Made by a program: the position numbers and the translations under genes
Part shown: one piece after another, positions 6,000-25,205 of the stretch
Layout: every line of letters starts with the position of its first letter
Numbering within the stretch: position 1 is the stretch's first letter
The notes under the pieces: generated by a model
The model's database searches: none
What the model was told of the DNA's origin: nothing
Seen by the model: the letters and a program-made list of their open reading frames with translations, nothing else
Assembly: GCA_937888715.1 (NCBI GenBank)
Contig: CALARU010000259.1
Span: 1 to 49,378 of the forward strand
Source: an uncultured Planctomycetaceae bacterium
GTDB taxonomy: Bacteria > Planctomycetota > Planctomycetia > Gemmatales > Gemmataceae
Length of the DNA stretch: 49,378 nt
Direction of reading: 5' to 3'

Positions 6000-8900
6000 T
6001 TATTCGGGACTACCAGTCCCCTCTTGGTCTTTTTGTGGTGCAGACTGGTTTGCTTGATTTTGGGTTTCCGCACCCTTCTTGGTCTCGCCAGCATCATTGG
6101 GAGTTGATTTCTCCCAAAAAACTGCAAGTTCTGCAAATGTTCCCAAGGGTGAGTCTCCGGATAACGCAGACTGCGATAAATTAGGCTTCTCGATAGGCTT
6201 TTGGCTCGAGAATGTACGAATTTGAGGTGGCCTGTTTGGGTCCAACCTAGGAGGCCGTGCGCCCCTGGGTTTATCATCTCTTGGCCTAAATGAACTGCTA
6301 CTACGGCTGCTACCTGCACTTCCACCTCCACTACTGCTACCGCCACTATTAGACCTTGCAGCGGGGAATCTGCCCGCAGGCCTTTCGGGTGAACGAGGGC
6401 GCAAAGGCGCACCTTGAGAGTCGCCTCCCTGATTACCTTCCGCATTTTGGGAAGCAGCATCTGGCCTACGATCAGGCCTTCTGGGGTAATCACGGGCAGG
6501 AGCTCGGGAAGATCGACCAGAACCTTGATGATCCGGTTCACGATTTGGATTGATCATGGTTAAAGATAATCGGGATTTTTCTTTATCCAAGGCAATGACC
6601 CAAACGGTAACAATATCACCTACACTGACAGATTCGTATGGGCTGCGCACATAACGTGCTGAAATCTGGCTGATATGAACCAAACCACTCTCTTTGATAC
6701 CCACATCGACAAAACAGCCGAATTCGACAACATTTTGTACCACGCCTGGAAGCTCCTGGCCAAGTTGTAATTCTTCAAAATCCAACTGCCTAACGCGATA
6801 AACTGGCCCAAACCGTTTGATCTGTTCCTGCGAAAGTGGGTTGATCAATTCATCAAGGAAATCTTTTAGGGATGTAACAGAATCGATGCCTGTTGTTGCG
6901 ATGATATCCTTGAGATTTGCATCAATCGCTTTTTGTAAGAGTTCCTGTTTCTTCTCTGGGGTTTTCCATTCATCCTTGGCGATGCCAAAGGCATCCAGAA
7001 TTTTCTTTGCCATCTCGTAATCTTCGGGGTGAAAATTAGTGGCATCGAAAGGCTCATCACCATTATGAACTTGTAAAAATCCTGCACAAAGCTCGAACTT
7101 TTCAGGAGTCAAACCCGGAACTTCAAGAAGTTGGGCGCGATTTTTATAGGGCCCGTTCTTTTTACGATGCTCAACGATTTCTTGAGCAAGCAACTGATTT
7201 AATCCTGATAAATGGCGCAAATAACTTGCCTCACATTTATTAAGATCTGCACCGCCAAGATTCACACACGATTCAAGCACATTATCAAGAGCTGGGCGAA
7301 GATACCTGTGCTGAACTTCAAATTCAACAAGACCCGACACAATATGAACAGGGTCAATCTTAATTAATTCGTTTAGCGGATTTTGCAATCTTCTACCAAT
7401 CGAAACAGCCGCTCTTACGCCGACATCAGAATCTGCAAGTTCTTCTTTACCTAAAATGGAAGATGCGTATTCCGAAGAACCAGCTTCGATCACCGTTGCG
7501 AATTTCACTTCCGCTGGTGCTTCAGGAAGGGTTTTGATTGTAGCTTTGGTATCATTGACCAACTTCTGGTACTCGGCTTGCCTTCGTTCTTTTTCAAGCT
7601 TCTTTTGAGCCTCAATCTCTTCCTTCTTTTTTGCAGCCTGAGCTTCCAATTCAGCCCTTTTAATCACAGCAAGAGCTGCCAACTCTGCCTTCTTAGCCGC
7701 TGCTAGAGCTTCCGCTGTTGGCTCTGCTCCATCGGCTGCCGTGGCAGGTGGGACTTCAGCAGGTGAAACTTCAACAGCAGGTGTTTCAACAGATACCACA
7801 GGCTCTGGAACTACAGGGGCACTAATCTGGGCAGGTACTTCAACAGCAGGTACTTCAACAGCAGGTACTTCAACAGCAGGCGCTTCAGCAGATTCTGCAA
7901 CCGTTTCATCCGTACCGCCTTTTTCACTCGCTTCTTCGGTGGGCAGAATTTCTTTATTATCTTCTTCAAGATGCTTTGGATTTTTAAGCCTGACGATCAA
8001 TTCATAAAGCAGGGCTTCGGTCGCTTTTGAAGCGTTGCCATTATCGAGCGCAATGGTGCTGATCTGATGTTTGCGAATCAATTCTTCGAGAACTAAAAGG
8101 CTAAGCTCTTTCTTTCCCTGGGGTTGATGGGGGAAGATTATTGCATGATCGATTAGCTTGCCTTCTTCGTTAATAACTGCAATTTTGCAGCCATTGCGAA
8201 AGCCTGGGTCGATTGCAAGAATTTTAATTGCACCTGCAGGATTAGCAACGAGGCGGTTGTGGTAAAATCGCGCTAGCAGGCTGGCAGCGTGTTCGGATGC
8301 CCTTTCACCCAAGTCACGTACGCATTCTCTTTCCAGCACGGGCTTGAGAATTTGATCGACAGCCACGCTCATCGCTTTTTTGATCAGTTCAACATATTTA
8401 TGGGTATATGCAGGGGCAGGAGCTGCTTTTACTTCAGGGGCAGGTGCCACTTCTGGGGTCACCACGACTTCTGGGGCTTGATCAGCTTCTGAAGAACTAT
8501 CTTCATTTACAGGTTGTTCGACAAACGAAGACTGGGAAACAGGTTTTTCAACAAGGGCTTCGAGTGCATTTTTCTTGGCTTGTTCGAGATTCCAATCGAA
8601 TAGCACATTAAGGAACCCGTTTTTCTCACCTTTGCCAATTTGCAGGTATTTTCGTGCTTGAACATTTCGCAGTGACTCGACATAGGAAAAGAATTCTTTT
8701 AATTCTAGGCCATGCTTATCGCGAACTTTGTTGGTTTTAGAAACTCGCAGGCTGCCAAAATCCCACAAATCATTGCGTACAGAGGCACGAACTGCGGGGA
8801 TTTCACTTAATTTTTCAGCCAGAATTTGGACCACGCCCTCAGTGATTTTTTCGATGGTTTCCAGACCTTTTTCTGGATTGATCATGGTTGGAAGTATTTC

Positions 8901-9350
8901 GTCGAGGTTGGCAATCGAAGGATCTTCAGTCCAAAGAGCCTCTGCAAAAGGCTCGAGGCCTTTTTCCCGGGCACCAGCTGCTAAGATGGATTTCCTTGGC
9001 TTTAATGGAAGATACACATCTTCTAGGCGTTTAGGAGATTCAATAGCAAGGATTTGCAGGCGCAGCTCTTCGGTTAATTTGCCCTGCGTTTCCAAAGCTT
9101 TGAGAATCATCTCTCTGCGATCATGAAAAGTTTTTATTTTAAACAGCCGGTCGCGAATCGCACGGATAACAGATTCATTCATGCCAGCAGTTTTGGCACG
9201 CCTGTATCTTGCGATAAACGAAGGGGATTTCCCTTCAAAGAGGAGGTTAATTGCGCTCTCAACATTATTTTTTCTAAGTTGAAAGTTTTGAGCAATTCTG
9301 GAAATTTCGTTAGCTCCGATTGCGCCCAGAGCTATTTGTACCGTCTGCAT
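6000..9350 (-). CDS. tex: Tex-like RNA-binding transcription accessory protein, enlarged
   Basis: Tex family proteins are nucleic-acid-binding factors with Tex-N, YqgF, helix-hairpin-helix and S1 domains, usually about 720-780 residues; this one has 1116. The N-terminal Tex core covers about 1-265; a Pro/Glu-rich linker 270-315; the YqgF domain starts at AIDPGF (379-384) and resumes at VIEAGSSEYASS (620-631), with an insertion of about 150 residues (455-605) between. The insertion holds VPAVE pentapeptide repeats and a Lys/Glu/Ala-rich probable coiled coil. Helix-hairpin-helix motifs follow (700-760), then S1 (863-934). The tail after 940 is Arg/Gly/Ser/Pro-rich and looks disordered. The core motifs are intact. 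The ATG at 9350 lacks a clear ribosome binding site. Confidence 0.93.
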   Translation of the reverse strand: MQTVQIALGAIGANEISRIAQNFQLRKNNVESAINLLFEGKSPSFIARYRRAKTAGMNESVIRAIRDRLFKIKTFHDRREMILKALETQGKLTEELRLQILAIESPKRLEDVYLPLKPRKSILAAGAREKGLEPFAEALWTEDPSIANLDEILPTMINPEKGLETIEKITEGVVQILAEKLSEIPAVRASVRNDLWDFGSLRVSKTNKVRDKHGLELKEFFSYVESLRNVQARKYLQIGKGEKNGFLNVLFDWNLEQAKKNALEALVEKPVSQSSFVEQPVNEDSSSEADQAPEVVVTPEVAPAPEVKAAPAPAYTHKYVELIKKAMSVAVDQILKPVLERECVRDLGERASEHAASLLARFYHNRLVANPAGAIKILAIDPGFRNGCKIAVINEEGKLIDHAIIFPHQPQGKKELSLLVLEELIRKHQISTIALDNGNASKATEALLYELIVRLKNPKHLEEDNKEILPTEEASEKGGTDETVAESAEAPAVEVPAVEVPAVEVPAQISAPVVPEPVVSVETPAVEVSPAEVPPATAADGAEPTAEALAAAKKAELAALAVIKRAELEAQAAKKKEEIEAQKKLEKERRQAEYQKLVNDTKATIKTLPEAPAEVKFATVIEAGSSEYASSILGKEELADSDVGVRAAVSIGRRLQNPLNELIKIDPVHIVSGLVEFEVQHRYLRPALDNVLESCVNLGGADLNKCEASYLRHLSGLNQLLAQEIVEHRKKNGPYKNRAQLLEVPGLTPEKFELCAGFLQVHNGDEPFDATNFHPEDYEMAKKILDAFGIAKDEWKTPEKKQELLQKAIDANLKDIIATTGIDSVTSLKDFLDELINPLSQEQIKRFGPVYRVRQLDFEELQLGQELPGVVQNVVEFGCFVDVGIKESGLVHISQISARYVRSPYESVSVGDIVTVWVIALDKEKSRLSLTMINPNREPDHQGSGRSSRAPARDYPRRPDRRPDAASQNAEGNQGGDSQGAPLRPRSPERPAGRFPAARSNSGGSSSGGGSAGSSRSSSSFRPRDDKPRGARPPRLDPNRPPQIRTFSSQKPIEKPNLSQSALSGDSPLGTFAELAVFWEKSTPNDAGETKKGAETQNQANQSAPQKDQEGTGSPE
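7831..7890. repeat. 15-bp tandem repeat inside tex
   Basis: The unit GCAGGTACTTCAACA is repeated exactly at 7831-7845, 7846-7860 and 7861-7875, and a degenerate copy (GCAGGCGCTTCAGCA) follows at 7876-7890. It encodes in-frame VPAVE repeats on the minus strand. More decayed copies lie further along, around 7744-7800, so the array has expanded and diverged in place. Confidence 0.85.
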
Positions 9351-12906: not shown

Positions 12907-13440
12907 ATGGAAAACAGTCAGATTCTTGCAGGCGCTGCCATTTGCACCGTTCTTATATGGCTCGGATTTGTCAGTTTCAAATCTCATTTCAATACTGTTT
13001 TATTTTTAACAACCCCAGACCCCACACAAAACTTCATACCTTATCAAATCCGCTTATGCAGGCTAATTGGCGGATTCTTCATGATTCTTTTAGCACTCAT
13101 GCTGGTCTTTGCAATGATCTACCTTGAAGAACCCGCACAGTATTTAGCCGACCTCCGGGATCACTCGGAAGAATCTAAAACAAAACTTGTCTACACTGCA
13201 GAACAACTCAACTTTGCAACCCGTTATGCTTTATTCTGGATAAGCTTTTTAATCGTGCTTTTCCTTTTAATATCAACCAGCAGCATCGATGCGATATTTT
13301 CTTGGAGATACCAGAAACAATTACGCGAATCGGTTGCAGCACTCAAAACTTTCGGATTAAATAGCAAAAACTCCGCCGATATTGACAACGAGGAAAATCA
13401 TCCGCCTTTTATGGATCAGCAATTCCACAACGAAAACTAA
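12907..13440 (+). CDS. Three-helix membrane protein, unknown function
   Basis: A 177-residue protein with three probable membrane helices (about residues 6-24, 54-78 and 108-130), a loop rich in charged residues between the second and third, and a soluble acidic C-terminal tail of about 45 residues. I do not recognise the family. AAGGTG sits just before the ATG. It lies 41 bases after the M28 gene and 17 bases before the acyltransferase fusion, so it is probably in the same transcript; a link with lipid metabolism is only a guess from position. Confidence 0.75.
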   Translation: MENSQILAGAAICTVLIWLGFVSFKSHFNTVLFLTTPDPTQNFIPYQIRLCRLIGGFFMILLALMLVFAMIYLEEPAQYLADLRDHSEESKTKLVYTAEQLNFATRYALFWISFLIVLFLLISTSSIDAIFSWRYQKQLRESVAALKTFGLNSKNSADIDNEENHPPFMDQQFHNEN

Positions 13441-13457: not shown

Positions 13458-16091
13458 ATGGTCGCAACAATTCTTTCTTTTTTCATGCGTTTACTTTTAA
13501 GAATGCGCTACAGCTTTACAATTAATGGAATTGCACATTTAAGCGAGAAAAAAAAAGGGACATTGATTCTGCCCAATCACCCAGCCTATACCGAACCAAT
13601 CATTTTGTTTTCCTTGTTATCACAATATCTAGCGCCCAGACCTCTGGTATATGAAACCTATTATCGAAACCGTTTCATCAAACCTTTCATGCTTTTGTTC
13701 AATGCATTGGAAGTACCAGACATGGAAAAAATCAGCCTGTCTGCAAAGCAAAAAGCTCAAGAAGCAATTCAAAATCTTGTAGTGGGACTGCAGAAAGGTG
13801 AAAACTTTATCATCTGGCCATCAGGCAAACTACAAAGAAAAGGATTGGAATCACTGGGCGGAAATTCAGGCGTCAGCGATATCTTGAAAATTTCTCCCGA
13901 TGCGAATGTTTTATTAATTCGAACAACAGGTTTATGGGGCAGCAGATTTAGCCATGCGTTTTCAGGCAATCGACCAAACCTGATTTCGGAATTACTTTAC
14001 TGCACGCTGCTTCTTATTTTAAACCTTTTATTTTTCATGCCCAAAAGAAAAATCACCATTACGATCGAACCACTTAATGCCACGAAATTAGCACCCTTTG
14101 AAAAGTCTAAAGTAAACCTTCATCTTGAAAATTGGTACAACCTTGATGCCAACACGACACCTGTTTATCGCCCCTACCACTTCTTATTATTTAGCCAAAC
14201 AAAAATCTTTCCGCCACTTGAACTCAATGAAAACATTACTGTACATAATATTTACCCCGATCTATTAAAAAGAGAAGTAATCCAAATCATCAAGGAAAAA
14301 TTTCCCGAAGTTATCGTAGACGAAAACACCGATCCAAATTCTGAATTAGATTCTCTCGGCCTTGATAGTATTCAAAGATTAGAACTGCTGATTCATCTAG
14401 AGCAACATTTCAAGTTTAATGGAAGCACGGTACCTAACACCCTAGATGACTTATACCTTTTATGTTCAGGAAAATCAAAAACATCCACACCGATCAAAGT
14501 CCCCAAGGAATGGAACGAAAGCTTCAGAATAAAGCCGGAAAGTGAGATCTTGGGAAACACGGTCCTTGATTCATTTATTTTGCGTGTGATGAAATCACCA
14601 AACCAAATTGCTCTCATTGATGATACATCAGGCATGCTAACTTACCGAAAATTATTTTTAGCATCTCTGGTGATTGCAAAAATCATTGAAAAGGATCCTG
14701 CGAAGCATGTGGGAATTTTACTACCCGCAAGTGCGGGGGGATTTATATCATATTTTGCCTGCTTAATTGCAAATAAAACACCTGTTTTACTAAATTGGAC
14801 TACTGGGCCTGCCAATCTGCAACATGCAATAAACTTCCTTGGGATAAAAATAATATTAACTTCACAACGCTTCATCGACCGGGTTGGAATTTCGATTGAA
14901 GATGCTCAATTTGTTTATTTAGAACAAGCCAAAGGTAAAACTAGTTATCCAACGCTTTTAAATTGCATGATCCAATCTTATTTCCCGAATGGTCTTCTTA
15001 AAAAATGCAAACACACAACTAAAACAGATTCAATTGCTGCAATTCTATTCACAAGCGGTTCAGAAAAACGCCCGAAGGCCGTACCTTTAACTCATAACAA
15101 CCTGATTTCAAACCATAAAAGTGGTACACCTTTTCTTGAACTTACTTCTCAAGACACCGTTCTATCTTTTCTACCACCCTTTCACAGTTTCGGCCTTTCC
15201 GTAACAGGCATACTGCCGATATTGCTGGGAATGAGAATTGTTTACCACCCAGACCCAACCGATGCTTCCACCTTAGCTGCCAAACTAAAAGCCTACGGAG
15301 TAACACTGCTCATTGGAACACCCACCTTCTTAGCACACATTCTCGATAAAGCATCAAACGAAACATTAGATAAATTAAGGCTAATCATATCAGGGGCGGA
15401 AAAATGCCCTGCAGCAGTTTTTGAACTAGCACAAAAAGTTGCACCGAATGCCAAATTGCTTGAAGGATATGGCATCACCGAATGCTCGCCAGTGGTTGCA
15501 GTCAACCCACCAAATTTCCAAAAAAGAGATTCCGTTGGTAAGCCGCTACCTGGAGTCGAGGTTTTAATTCTTGAATTGGAAACCGATAGGGTTTTGAAAA
15601 AAAATGAAACAGGAATGCTTCATGTTTCAGGCCCTACTATTTTTAACGGGTACCTTGGCGAAGAAGGAACCCCTCCCTTTAAGTTTATCAACAATCAAAA
15701 CTGGTACATCACAGGCGACCTTGTAATGGAAGATGATGACGGTTATTTATTTTTCAAGGGAAGATTAAAACGCTTTATTAAAGTAGGTGGCGAAATGATT
15801 TCATTACCAGCACTGGAAGAAGTGTTTTCAGCACTATTTCCCCCTGACGAAAACGGCCCCATAGTTGCAATTGAAGGCATTGAAAAAGATAATCGTAAAT
15901 ATGTTTATTTATTTAATCGTAATCAAATGGATGTATCAGAAGCCAACCGCCTGCTACAAGATGCAGGATTCCGAGGTATCATGCGAATTGACAAAGTAGT
16001 AAAAACAAATGAAATCCCTGTATTAGGAACAGGAAAAACAAATTACCGAAACCTTAGAGAACAAATTGAAAAAGAAATCAAAGGGAGCTAA
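13458..16091 (+). CDS. Fused PlsC-like acyltransferase, acyl carrier domain and AMP-dependent acyl ligase
   Basis: An 877-residue fusion. Residues 1-230 resemble 1-acylglycerol-phosphate acyltransferases: NHPAYTEP (40-47, an NHx4E form of the NHx4D catalytic motif) and WPSGK (120-124). Residues 262-337 are an acyl carrier protein domain with the phosphopantetheine site LGLDSIQRLEL (Ser304). Residues 365-877 form an acyl-adenylate ligase: FTSGSEKRPKAVPLTH (531-546), GYGITECSPV, YITGDLV, GRLKRFIKVGGEM and the final-lysine region LGTGKTNY. Such an enzyme could activate a free fatty acid, load it on its own carrier domain and transfer it to a lysophospholipid, like Aas with a built-in carrier. 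It ends 3 bases from convergent hisA. Confidence 0.87.
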   Translation: MVATILSFFMRLLLRMRYSFTINGIAHLSEKKKGTLILPNHPAYTEPIILFSLLSQYLAPRPLVYETYYRNRFIKPFMLLFNALEVPDMEKISLSAKQKAQEAIQNLVVGLQKGENFIIWPSGKLQRKGLESLGGNSGVSDILKISPDANVLLIRTTGLWGSRFSHAFSGNRPNLISELLYCTLLLILNLLFFMPKRKITITIEPLNATKLAPFEKSKVNLHLENWYNLDANTTPVYRPYHFLLFSQTKIFPPLELNENITVHNIYPDLLKREVIQIIKEKFPEVIVDENTDPNSELDSLGLDSIQRLELLIHLEQHFKFNGSTVPNTLDDLYLLCSGKSKTSTPIKVPKEWNESFRIKPESEILGNTVLDSFILRVMKSPNQIALIDDTSGMLTYRKLFLASLVIAKIIEKDPAKHVGILLPASAGGFISYFACLIANKTPVLLNWTTGPANLQHAINFLGIKIILTSQRFIDRVGISIEDAQFVYLEQAKGKTSYPTLLNCMIQSYFPNGLLKKCKHTTKTDSIAAILFTSGSEKRPKAVPLTHNNLISNHKSGTPFLELTSQDTVLSFLPPFHSFGLSVTGILPILLGMRIVYHPDPTDASTLAAKLKAYGVTLLIGTPTFLAHILDKASNETLDKLRLIISGAEKCPAAVFELAQKVAPNAKLLEGYGITECSPVVAVNPPNFQKRDSVGKPLPGVEVLILELETDRVLKKNETGMLHVSGPTIFNGYLGEEGTPPFKFINNQNWYITGDLVMEDDDGYLFFKGRLKRFIKVGGEMISLPALEEVFSALFPPDENGPIVAIEGIEKDNRKYVYLFNRNQMDVSEANRLLQDAGFRGIMRIDKVVKTNEIPVLGTGKTNYRNLREQIEKEIKGS

Positions 16092-23708: not shown

Positions 23709-25205
23709 TTAAATCTTATTCCTTCGCAACTTTTCCAAGACAGTTTTCCTCATCACATCTAAAGGTGCATTAAATGATGTAAAAAGATTGAATTGTGCTG
23801 CAGCTTGACAAACAAACATTTCCACTCCATCGATAACGATGGCCCCTGCTTGCGCCGCATCTCTTAAAAATCGGGTCTCAATTGGATTGTACACTGTATC
23901 AAATGCAACATGATCTTTGGTAAAGCAATTTGAATCCCAAGGTGAATCATTCTCATTGGGGTGCATCCCCACGGAAGTGCAATTCACCAGTAAGCCGGAT
24001 TTAAAATCGTGCCTTTGGCTCCATGGCATAACTGCAACACCAGCCTCACATGCTAATTTTTCAGCTCTTTCAGAAGACCGATTACAAACTTTTACACCGC
24101 AACCCGCTTTTTTTAGTGCGAATACTGCAGCACGCGATACGCCGCCTGCTCCAAGAATCAAGACTTCTCTATTTTCTAGTGTTTCACCCAACTTGTTCTT
24201 GATGGCTGCAATAATACCTGTTGCATCCGTGTTCTCGGCATGAAATCCATAACCAGTTTTAACCAAAGTGTTGGCCGCACCTATTTGCTTCACCAGATCA
24301 GAACTTGTTGTCGCAAAACGAAAAGCACTCTCCTTATGCGGAATCGTAACACTATAACCCATTACCGGAATCGATTGATAAGCTTCGATAGCACTGGAGA
24401 AATCGGATGCTGAAATATGAAAAGGCAAATAAAGCCCAGGAAAACCCAATGCCTTAAAACTGGCATTATGAATAGCTGGGCTTAAACTATGGCCAATAGG
24501 ATCACCCATTACGCCAAAAACTTTGGTTTCTTTGCCTAAATTTTTAATGTCATAATCCGAAACCACATCTTTAAAAATTGGAATGCCCGGAGCGTTCACC
24601 AAATTATCAGAATAATTGGTATACATCCAAGGGCTACGCTTCTGGGTCAAAGCAAGCACTCTGGAGGGAAAACCCACGGTTCCCATGCAAAAAGCAATCA
24701 AAGGAAGACTTGCATGCTGATACAAATCGAGGATTCTAACTAAATCGGAATTATTGTTGGCAAAGCAGGCAATTTTCACCAATTCTGGACCCTGTGATTC
24801 AAAAGCTTTATGCAACACACTGATATTAGCTGGGGTTTGGGCAAAATTATGATAACTAAGGATACGCAGGCAATCGTTAGACGTGGAAAAGTTGTGAAAA
24901 CAATCAGCTTCGACATCGATCGCATGTGCCCCAGATTTCTGGGCCTGAATCAATATTTTAATGCGACTTTGCTCGTCTTTTTCCCAAAGCCCGCCATCAA
25001 TTTTCCTTCGAATGGTTACTAGAGTTGGACCTGTTATATTTTTTAGTATCTCCGCAATGGAAAACTCTTCCTGAAGAAAATCCAGCCTTAACTCAACCAA
25101 ATCTGCACCAAAATCAAATGCATGATTACAAGATTGCACCATCTGAATGCATGTTTTCTCAGCAATTACTGCGCAGACACCATTTTTTAGTTCAGCTAAT
25201 TTCAT
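23709..25205 (-). CDS. aroDE: Bifunctional 3-dehydroquinate dehydratase / shikimate dehydrogenase
   Basis: Carries out two consecutive shikimate-pathway steps. The first domain (1-215) is type I dehydroquinase with Schiff-base Lys144 (ELVKIACFA) and His119 (LSYHNFA). The second (225-498) is shikimate dehydrogenase: FGVMGDPIGHSLSPAIHN, Lys291 in SVTIPHKE, Asp327 in AENTDATG, and the NADP-binding GAGGVSRAA (352-360). All key residues are present. Such D-E fusions are known from plants, chlamydiae and planctomycetes. First gene of the minus-strand run; the promoter must be in the 112 bases shared with the divergent rhomboid gene. Confidence 0.96.
   Translation of the reverse strand: MKLAELKNGVCAVIAEKTCIQMVQSCNHAFDFGADLVELRLDFLQEEFSIAEILKNITGPTLVTIRRKIDGGLWEKDEQSRIKILIQAQKSGAHAIDVEADCFHNFSTSNDCLRILSYHNFAQTPANISVLHKAFESQGPELVKIACFANNNSDLVRILDLYQHASLPLIAFCMGTVGFPSRVLALTQKRSPWMYTNYSDNLVNAPGIPIFKDVVSDYDIKNLGKETKVFGVMGDPIGHSLSPAIHNASFKALGFPGLYLPFHISASDFSSAIEAYQSIPVMGYSVTIPHKESAFRFATTSSDLVKQIGAANTLVKTGYGFHAENTDATGIIAAIKNKLGETLENREVLILGAGGVSRAAVFALKKAGCGVKVCNRSSERAEKLACEAGVAVMPWSQRHDFKSGLLVNCTSVGMHPNENDSPWDSNCFTKDHVAFDTVYNPIETRFLRDAAQAGAIVIDGVEMFVCQAAAQFNLFTSFNAPLDVMRKTVLEKLRRNKI

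Follow-up and report, generated by a model that had tools for sequence, protein, structure and literature searches.

Can the activation of a fatty acid, its loading onto an acyl carrier protein (ACP) and its transfer to an acceptor take place on one polypeptide chain? This question is raised by an 877-residue open reading frame on contig CALARU010000259.1 of an uncultured Planctomycetaceae bacterium, located in the 49,378-nucleotide stretch of DNA that was analysed (the window). The original prediction had described it as a PlsC-like acyltransferase (AT), an ACP domain carrying Ser304 and an acyl-adenylate ligase, in that order from N- to C-terminus. When the translation was re-read, the frame, its coordinates, its length and the motifs NHPAYTEP (residues 40–47) and LGLDS (surrounding Ser304) were all exact. 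Profiles, conservation and predicted folds each bore out all three domains, and both the domain order and the carrier serine were as predicted. The features are listed in Table 1, with the ACP domain proper at residues 262–340.

Table 1. Features of the AT–ACP–ligase gene and its upstream neighbour, in window coordinates.
Feature	Position	Strand	Evidence
Whole gene, 877-residue AT–ACP–ligase protein	13458..16091	+	Open reading frame, Pfam, alignment, domain scans of loci
PlsC-like acyltransferase domain, residues 1–238	13458..14171	+	Pfam match in each of the 19 close relatives; predicted fold resembling PlsC 5kym (Z 16.4)
HX4E catalytic motif, H41...E46	13578..13595	+	H41 invariant; residue 46 is Asp in almost all relatives
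WPSG, residues 120–123, at the FPEG site of PlsC/Aas	13815..13826	+	Sequence comparison with relatives and E. coli Aas
GLWGS, residues 158–162	13929..13943	+	Family-wide invariance of G158 and W160-G161-S162; WGS also in MFS–AT–ligase Aas
Acyl carrier domain, residues 262–345	14241..14492	+	PP-binding above cut-off; predicted helices; ACP fold Z 9.7
Ser304, opening ACP helix II; predicted site of phosphopantetheine attachment	14367..14369	+	Invariant in 73 loci and in alignments A3/A4
Aas-type acyl-adenylate/acyl-ACP ligase domain, residues 366–877	14553..16088	+	Pfam 224 bits; tree; TSGSE at 532–536
Lys860 in GTGK of the C-terminal lobe; predicted catalytic lysine	16035..16037	+	Invariant in alignment A1
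177-residue predicted membrane protein, upstream neighbour	12907..13440	+	Neighbourhood comparison

The distribution of the arrangement was determined first among close relatives and then across the phylum. More than half of the searched genomes from the same family encoded full-length relatives, at approximately 40–95 % identity. Matches to the AT–ACP profile A2 were bimodal: full or nearly full matches had E-values of at most 1e-60, and matches to the AT alone lay at approximately 1e-25 or worse. By hand count, the former were present in about 80 of the 297 genomes from this class and in a further 17 from other classes, amounting to 18 Planctomycetota families altogether in a search that covered this phylum and other phyla scarcely. 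Domain scans placed AT, ACP and ligase in one frame in nearly all fetched loci; one locus missed by the ACP profile (L072) had a weak PP-binding match and retained the Asp-Ser pair. A peptide-pattern genome scan returned the same genus alone, its patterns being over-specific, and no plasmid record covering 80 % of the protein was found. The three-domain arrangement is real and widespread in Planctomycetota, not a peculiarity of one genome. A frameshift, a misassembly or chance was ruled out as its origin, since the frame is open over its full length with the same order in scores of independent genomes, including single-contig ones. No point in favour of separate genes having been joined artificially was found, and we give that explanation practically no weight. 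The predicted architecture proved common in Planctomycetota when genomes were searched for it; no described AT–ACP–ligase protein was found in the open literature, which does not prove absence.

Two side observations concern individual genomes. Five of them (G016, G019, G023, G038 and G092) encode two full-length three-domain paralogues each. On one contig (L028), a copy with 93 % identity lies in the gene order of the window, and the Candidatus Kuenenia stuttgartiensis title of that record is probably wrong.

For the N-terminal domain, the Pfam Acyltransferase (PF01553) score was 19.2 bits at residues 30–129 when this protein was scanned alone and 22.9/23.1 bits in the genome search, placing it only about at the 23-bit cut-off, which its relatives exceed. 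All three Pfam families were matched by each of the 19 close relatives, with AT E-values down to 1.4e-9, and all family members matched an NCBIfam model for acyl-ACP--phospholipid O-acyltransferase. Folds of the AT and ACP parts were compared using an AlphaFold2 model of residues 1–345 alone, built on alignment A4 (pLDDT 88). The predicted AT fold was closest to PlsC of T. maritima (194 residues, 3.4 Å), followed by GPATs, PatA and LpxM. On profile and fold together, the domain was counted as a member of the PlsC/GPAT family, with the profile score at the cut-off in this protein.

Across 41 sequences reaching approximately 30 % identity at the far end, the invariant residues were H41, P121, G123, G158, W160–S162, D303 and S304. 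Glu occupies position 46 only in the window's genus and in one other relative (L082); almost all others have Asp there. The NHx4E motif had been singled out as an oddity, which was not upheld: HX4D/E is the described superfamily motif (PMC6148475, PMC9597891), so the change is conservative. Its interpretation as a sign of new chemistry was rejected on the same grounds. The AT motif of L082 (genome G354), NHPALIEP, is a second, distant HX4E, apparently independent of the window's genus.

The carrier domain was identified by a PP-binding (PF00550) match at residues 276–320, scoring 24.3 bits against a cut-off of 20.8, with E-values down to 9e-11 among the 19 close relatives. The predicted fold of residues 266–339 resembled the ACP 4dxe over 72 residues at 2.0 Å, with helices at 268–281, 304–318 and 329–337. 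Ser304 begins the second of these helices, the position occupied by the phosphopantetheine serine in ACPs. The segment therefore has the profile, the helical carrier fold and the Asp-Ser pair opening helix II of an acyl carrier; it had been placed at residues 262–337, and its boundary is closer to 265–340. The GxDS serine was kept in all 73 loci read, some of which were repeat fetches of one gene. This invariance, together with that of H41, D303-S304 and W160-G161-S162, indicates that carrier and transferase are jointly under selection. The modest PP-binding score in this protein could be taken to mean that the segment is a relic without phosphopantetheine; given the Asp-Ser pair at every locus read and the complete fold, we consider this very improbable. 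The genome encodes two phosphopantetheinyl transferases (PPTases) as well as stand-alone ACPs.

For the C-terminal domain, the AMP-binding Pfam match spanned residues 378–733, and Lys860 is a candidate catalytic residue by analogy with the adenylate-forming family. In a maximum-likelihood tree, the ligases of the three-domain proteins formed one clade (support 100/99), which grouped with E. coli Aas and the MFS–AT–ligase Aas proteins, the whole group being separated from three further ligases of this genome (99/99). Branching inside the Aas group was less certain (93/74) and the outgroups were long-branched. Assignment as a plain FadD-type CoA ligase was rejected on the basis of this placement. 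The best NCBIfam models were likewise acyl-ACP synthetase/Aas, all scoring far under their full-length cut-offs (PRK08043, 266 of 886 bits; PRK08633, 468 of 1221; PRK06814, 377 of 1349), and no FAAL model was among the best 25 NCBIfam matches. For the whole chain, an AlphaFold2 model built on the 41-sequence alignment A3 reached pLDDT 85, and its top Foldseek match was EntE–EntB (3rg2), an adenylation–carrier fusion.

In the window's genus and in one further genome (G059), the gene follows dinB, truB, an M28 peptidase gene (assigned by Pfam; the order was read from sequence) and the gene for the 177-residue membrane protein. The latter ends 17 bp upstream and is possibly co-transcribed with the AT–ACP–ligase gene, an adjacency conserved only in these genomes. 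No conserved neighbours were found beyond them, and a role in a PKS/NRPS or lipid-pathway gene cluster was therefore rejected. No LplT-like gene was found adjacent to the AT–ACP–ligase gene.

Elsewhere in the genome, its own PlsC gene (L119) adjoins that for cytidylate kinase, and PlsY is encoded too. A 637-residue protein (L006:259-2172; G000:C177) combines a long N-terminal membrane part with an AT at the C-terminus (NHAAYLDP) and is similar to the transporter–AT half of an Aas fusion, with no ligase attached. In a 768-residue Aas-like AT–ligase (L002:784-3090; G000:C287), the AT half is probably inactive, since the histidine of HX4D has been lost (VASQIRFDE) and Pfam detects no AT there. 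Together, the two may constitute a split LplT–Aas. With these proteins, the separate PlsC and PlsY, the ACPs and the PPTases, ordinary phospholipid synthesis is covered and the present enzyme is an addition. Two other window genes were noted by reading, both on the reverse strand: a fused 3-dehydroquinate dehydratase/shikimate dehydrogenase (23709–25205, by motif) and a 1116-residue Tex-like RNA-binding protein (6000–9350) with a long low-complexity insert (PAVEVPAVEVP...) and tail.

From the observed domains, invariant catalytic residues and Aas kinship of the ligase, we infer that the protein is probably a self-contained Aas-type lipid acylation enzyme with the carrier as part of the chain, and that activation, loading and transfer most likely occur on that one chain. 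A cellular PPTase would modify Ser304, after which the C-terminal ligase would use ATP to activate a free fatty acid, which it would load in cis onto the Ser304 arm. The carrier would then swing to the N-terminal, membrane-bound AT, where H41 and E46 would drive acyl transfer to the hydroxyl of a membrane lipid, the simplest acceptor being a lysophospholipid.

Lysophospholipid is the default acceptor and another lipid its main rival. Motif III reads WPSG in this protein and follows the pattern [WYF]P[SA]G in almost every family member, whereas the genome's own PlsC and E. coli Aas retain FPEG. Judged from the residues, this loss is a stronger departure than NHx4E and was overlooked in the original prediction. 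Substrate binding requires motifs II and III (PMC7613133), so this enzyme may use a different acceptor from PlsC and Aas; the replaced FPEG, together with the absence of an adjacent LplT-like gene, suggests that the acceptor may not be a lysophospholipid. The same mechanism acting on another acceptor, for example a Planctomycetota amino-lipid, a glycolipid or a sterol/hopanoid-type hydroxyl, is a serious though not the favoured possibility. It is consistent with an additional conserved stretch at residues 170–255, with the presence in the genome of separate PlsC, PlsY, membrane-fused AT and Aas-like genes, and with PatA and LpxM among the AT fold neighbours. Against it, the closest solved fold is PlsC, the acyl-ACP--phospholipid O-acyltransferase model is matched by all members and the neighbourhood contains no genes of another lipid pathway. 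This possibility overlaps with the self-contained enzyme preferred above, which commits to no acceptor.

Proteins of 363–368 residues consisting of AT and ACP without a ligase were found in three genomes (L071, L080 and L085). They fall at two places in the AT–ACP tree, and the nested position of one pair, which has moderate support, suggests ligase loss. No Aas-type ligase was seen in two of these genomes (G382 and G416), so the AT–ACP pair can be fed otherwise; the third has an AT–ligase Aas located elsewhere. It could be argued from these proteins that the attached ligase is not the main charger of the built-in ACP, which would instead receive acyl groups from another ligase or directly from fatty acid synthesis, or serve as a docking part, with the attached ligase charging free ACP or CoA. 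We regard this as unlikely, as the ligase is in the same chain and of Aas type in the great majority of members, and Aas is known to charge the ACP that it holds. A broader and rather speculative extension of the self-contained enzyme would be a Planctomycetota-wide single-chain module that activates, holds and transfers the acyl group to a non-glycerophosphate membrane lipid, and whose AT–ACP core also occurs ligase-free.

If the self-contained enzyme is confirmed, it would provide a natural example of a fatty-acid salvage enzyme whose carrier has become covalent, and would make the channelling of acyl-ACP by Aas-type enzymes testable. The Planctomycetota, in which the assignment of membrane lipid pathways is poor, would gain a further route of lipid acylation, and engineering would gain a compact acylating enzyme driven by free fatty acid.

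The arrangement was compared with known systems. E. coli Aas, the 2-acyl-GPE acyltransferase/acyl-ACP synthetase, consists of an AT (residues 1–203) and a ligase (204–719) (PMC11416262); it binds ACP at a high-affinity site and makes acyl-ACP in bound form (PMC13170283), which serves acyl transfer (PMC13170283, PMC11416262). It is alike in that the AT precedes an Aas-type ligase, with ligases approximately 30 % identical, and in the use of held acyl-ACP for transfer; it differs in its separate, non-covalent ACP, absence of a carrier domain, retained FPEG and partner LplT. The contrast with Aas originally drawn is smaller than claimed: E. coli Aas already holds its ACP tightly, and the fusion turns this non-covalent association into a covalent one.

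The MFS–AT–ligase Aas proteins (PRK08633/PRK06814 type), which also occur in Planctomycetota (L086–L091), gave the closest AT match tested (27 % identity, E-value 4e-11), share the WGS motif and have a ligase 33 % identical. Unlike the present protein, they have an N-terminal MFS transporter, no ACP between AT and ligase, and FPEG or FAEG retained. In Chlamydia, the same activities are expected of the acyltransferase CT775, which takes acyl-ACP (PMC5693948), and the acyl-ACP synthase CT776/AasC, but these are two proteins and the ACP is separate. EntE–EntB likewise ties an adenylating ligase covalently to its own carrier, but with an aryl acid substrate, an NRPS adenylation domain and no PlsC-like AT. 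The enzymes of the planctomycete ornithine-lipid pathway, OlsH/OlsI (PMC12493201), were considered and are unrelated.

With Aas, the protein shares a ligase of that lineage and an N-terminal PlsC-like AT with HX4D/E; it departs from Aas in motif III, in its score against the full-length equivalog models and in having a carrier domain built into the chain. Because its carrier and motif III features differ, it is not Aas in the strict sense, and on the sequence comparisons it is best seen as a variant of Aas in which the carrier has been made permanent.
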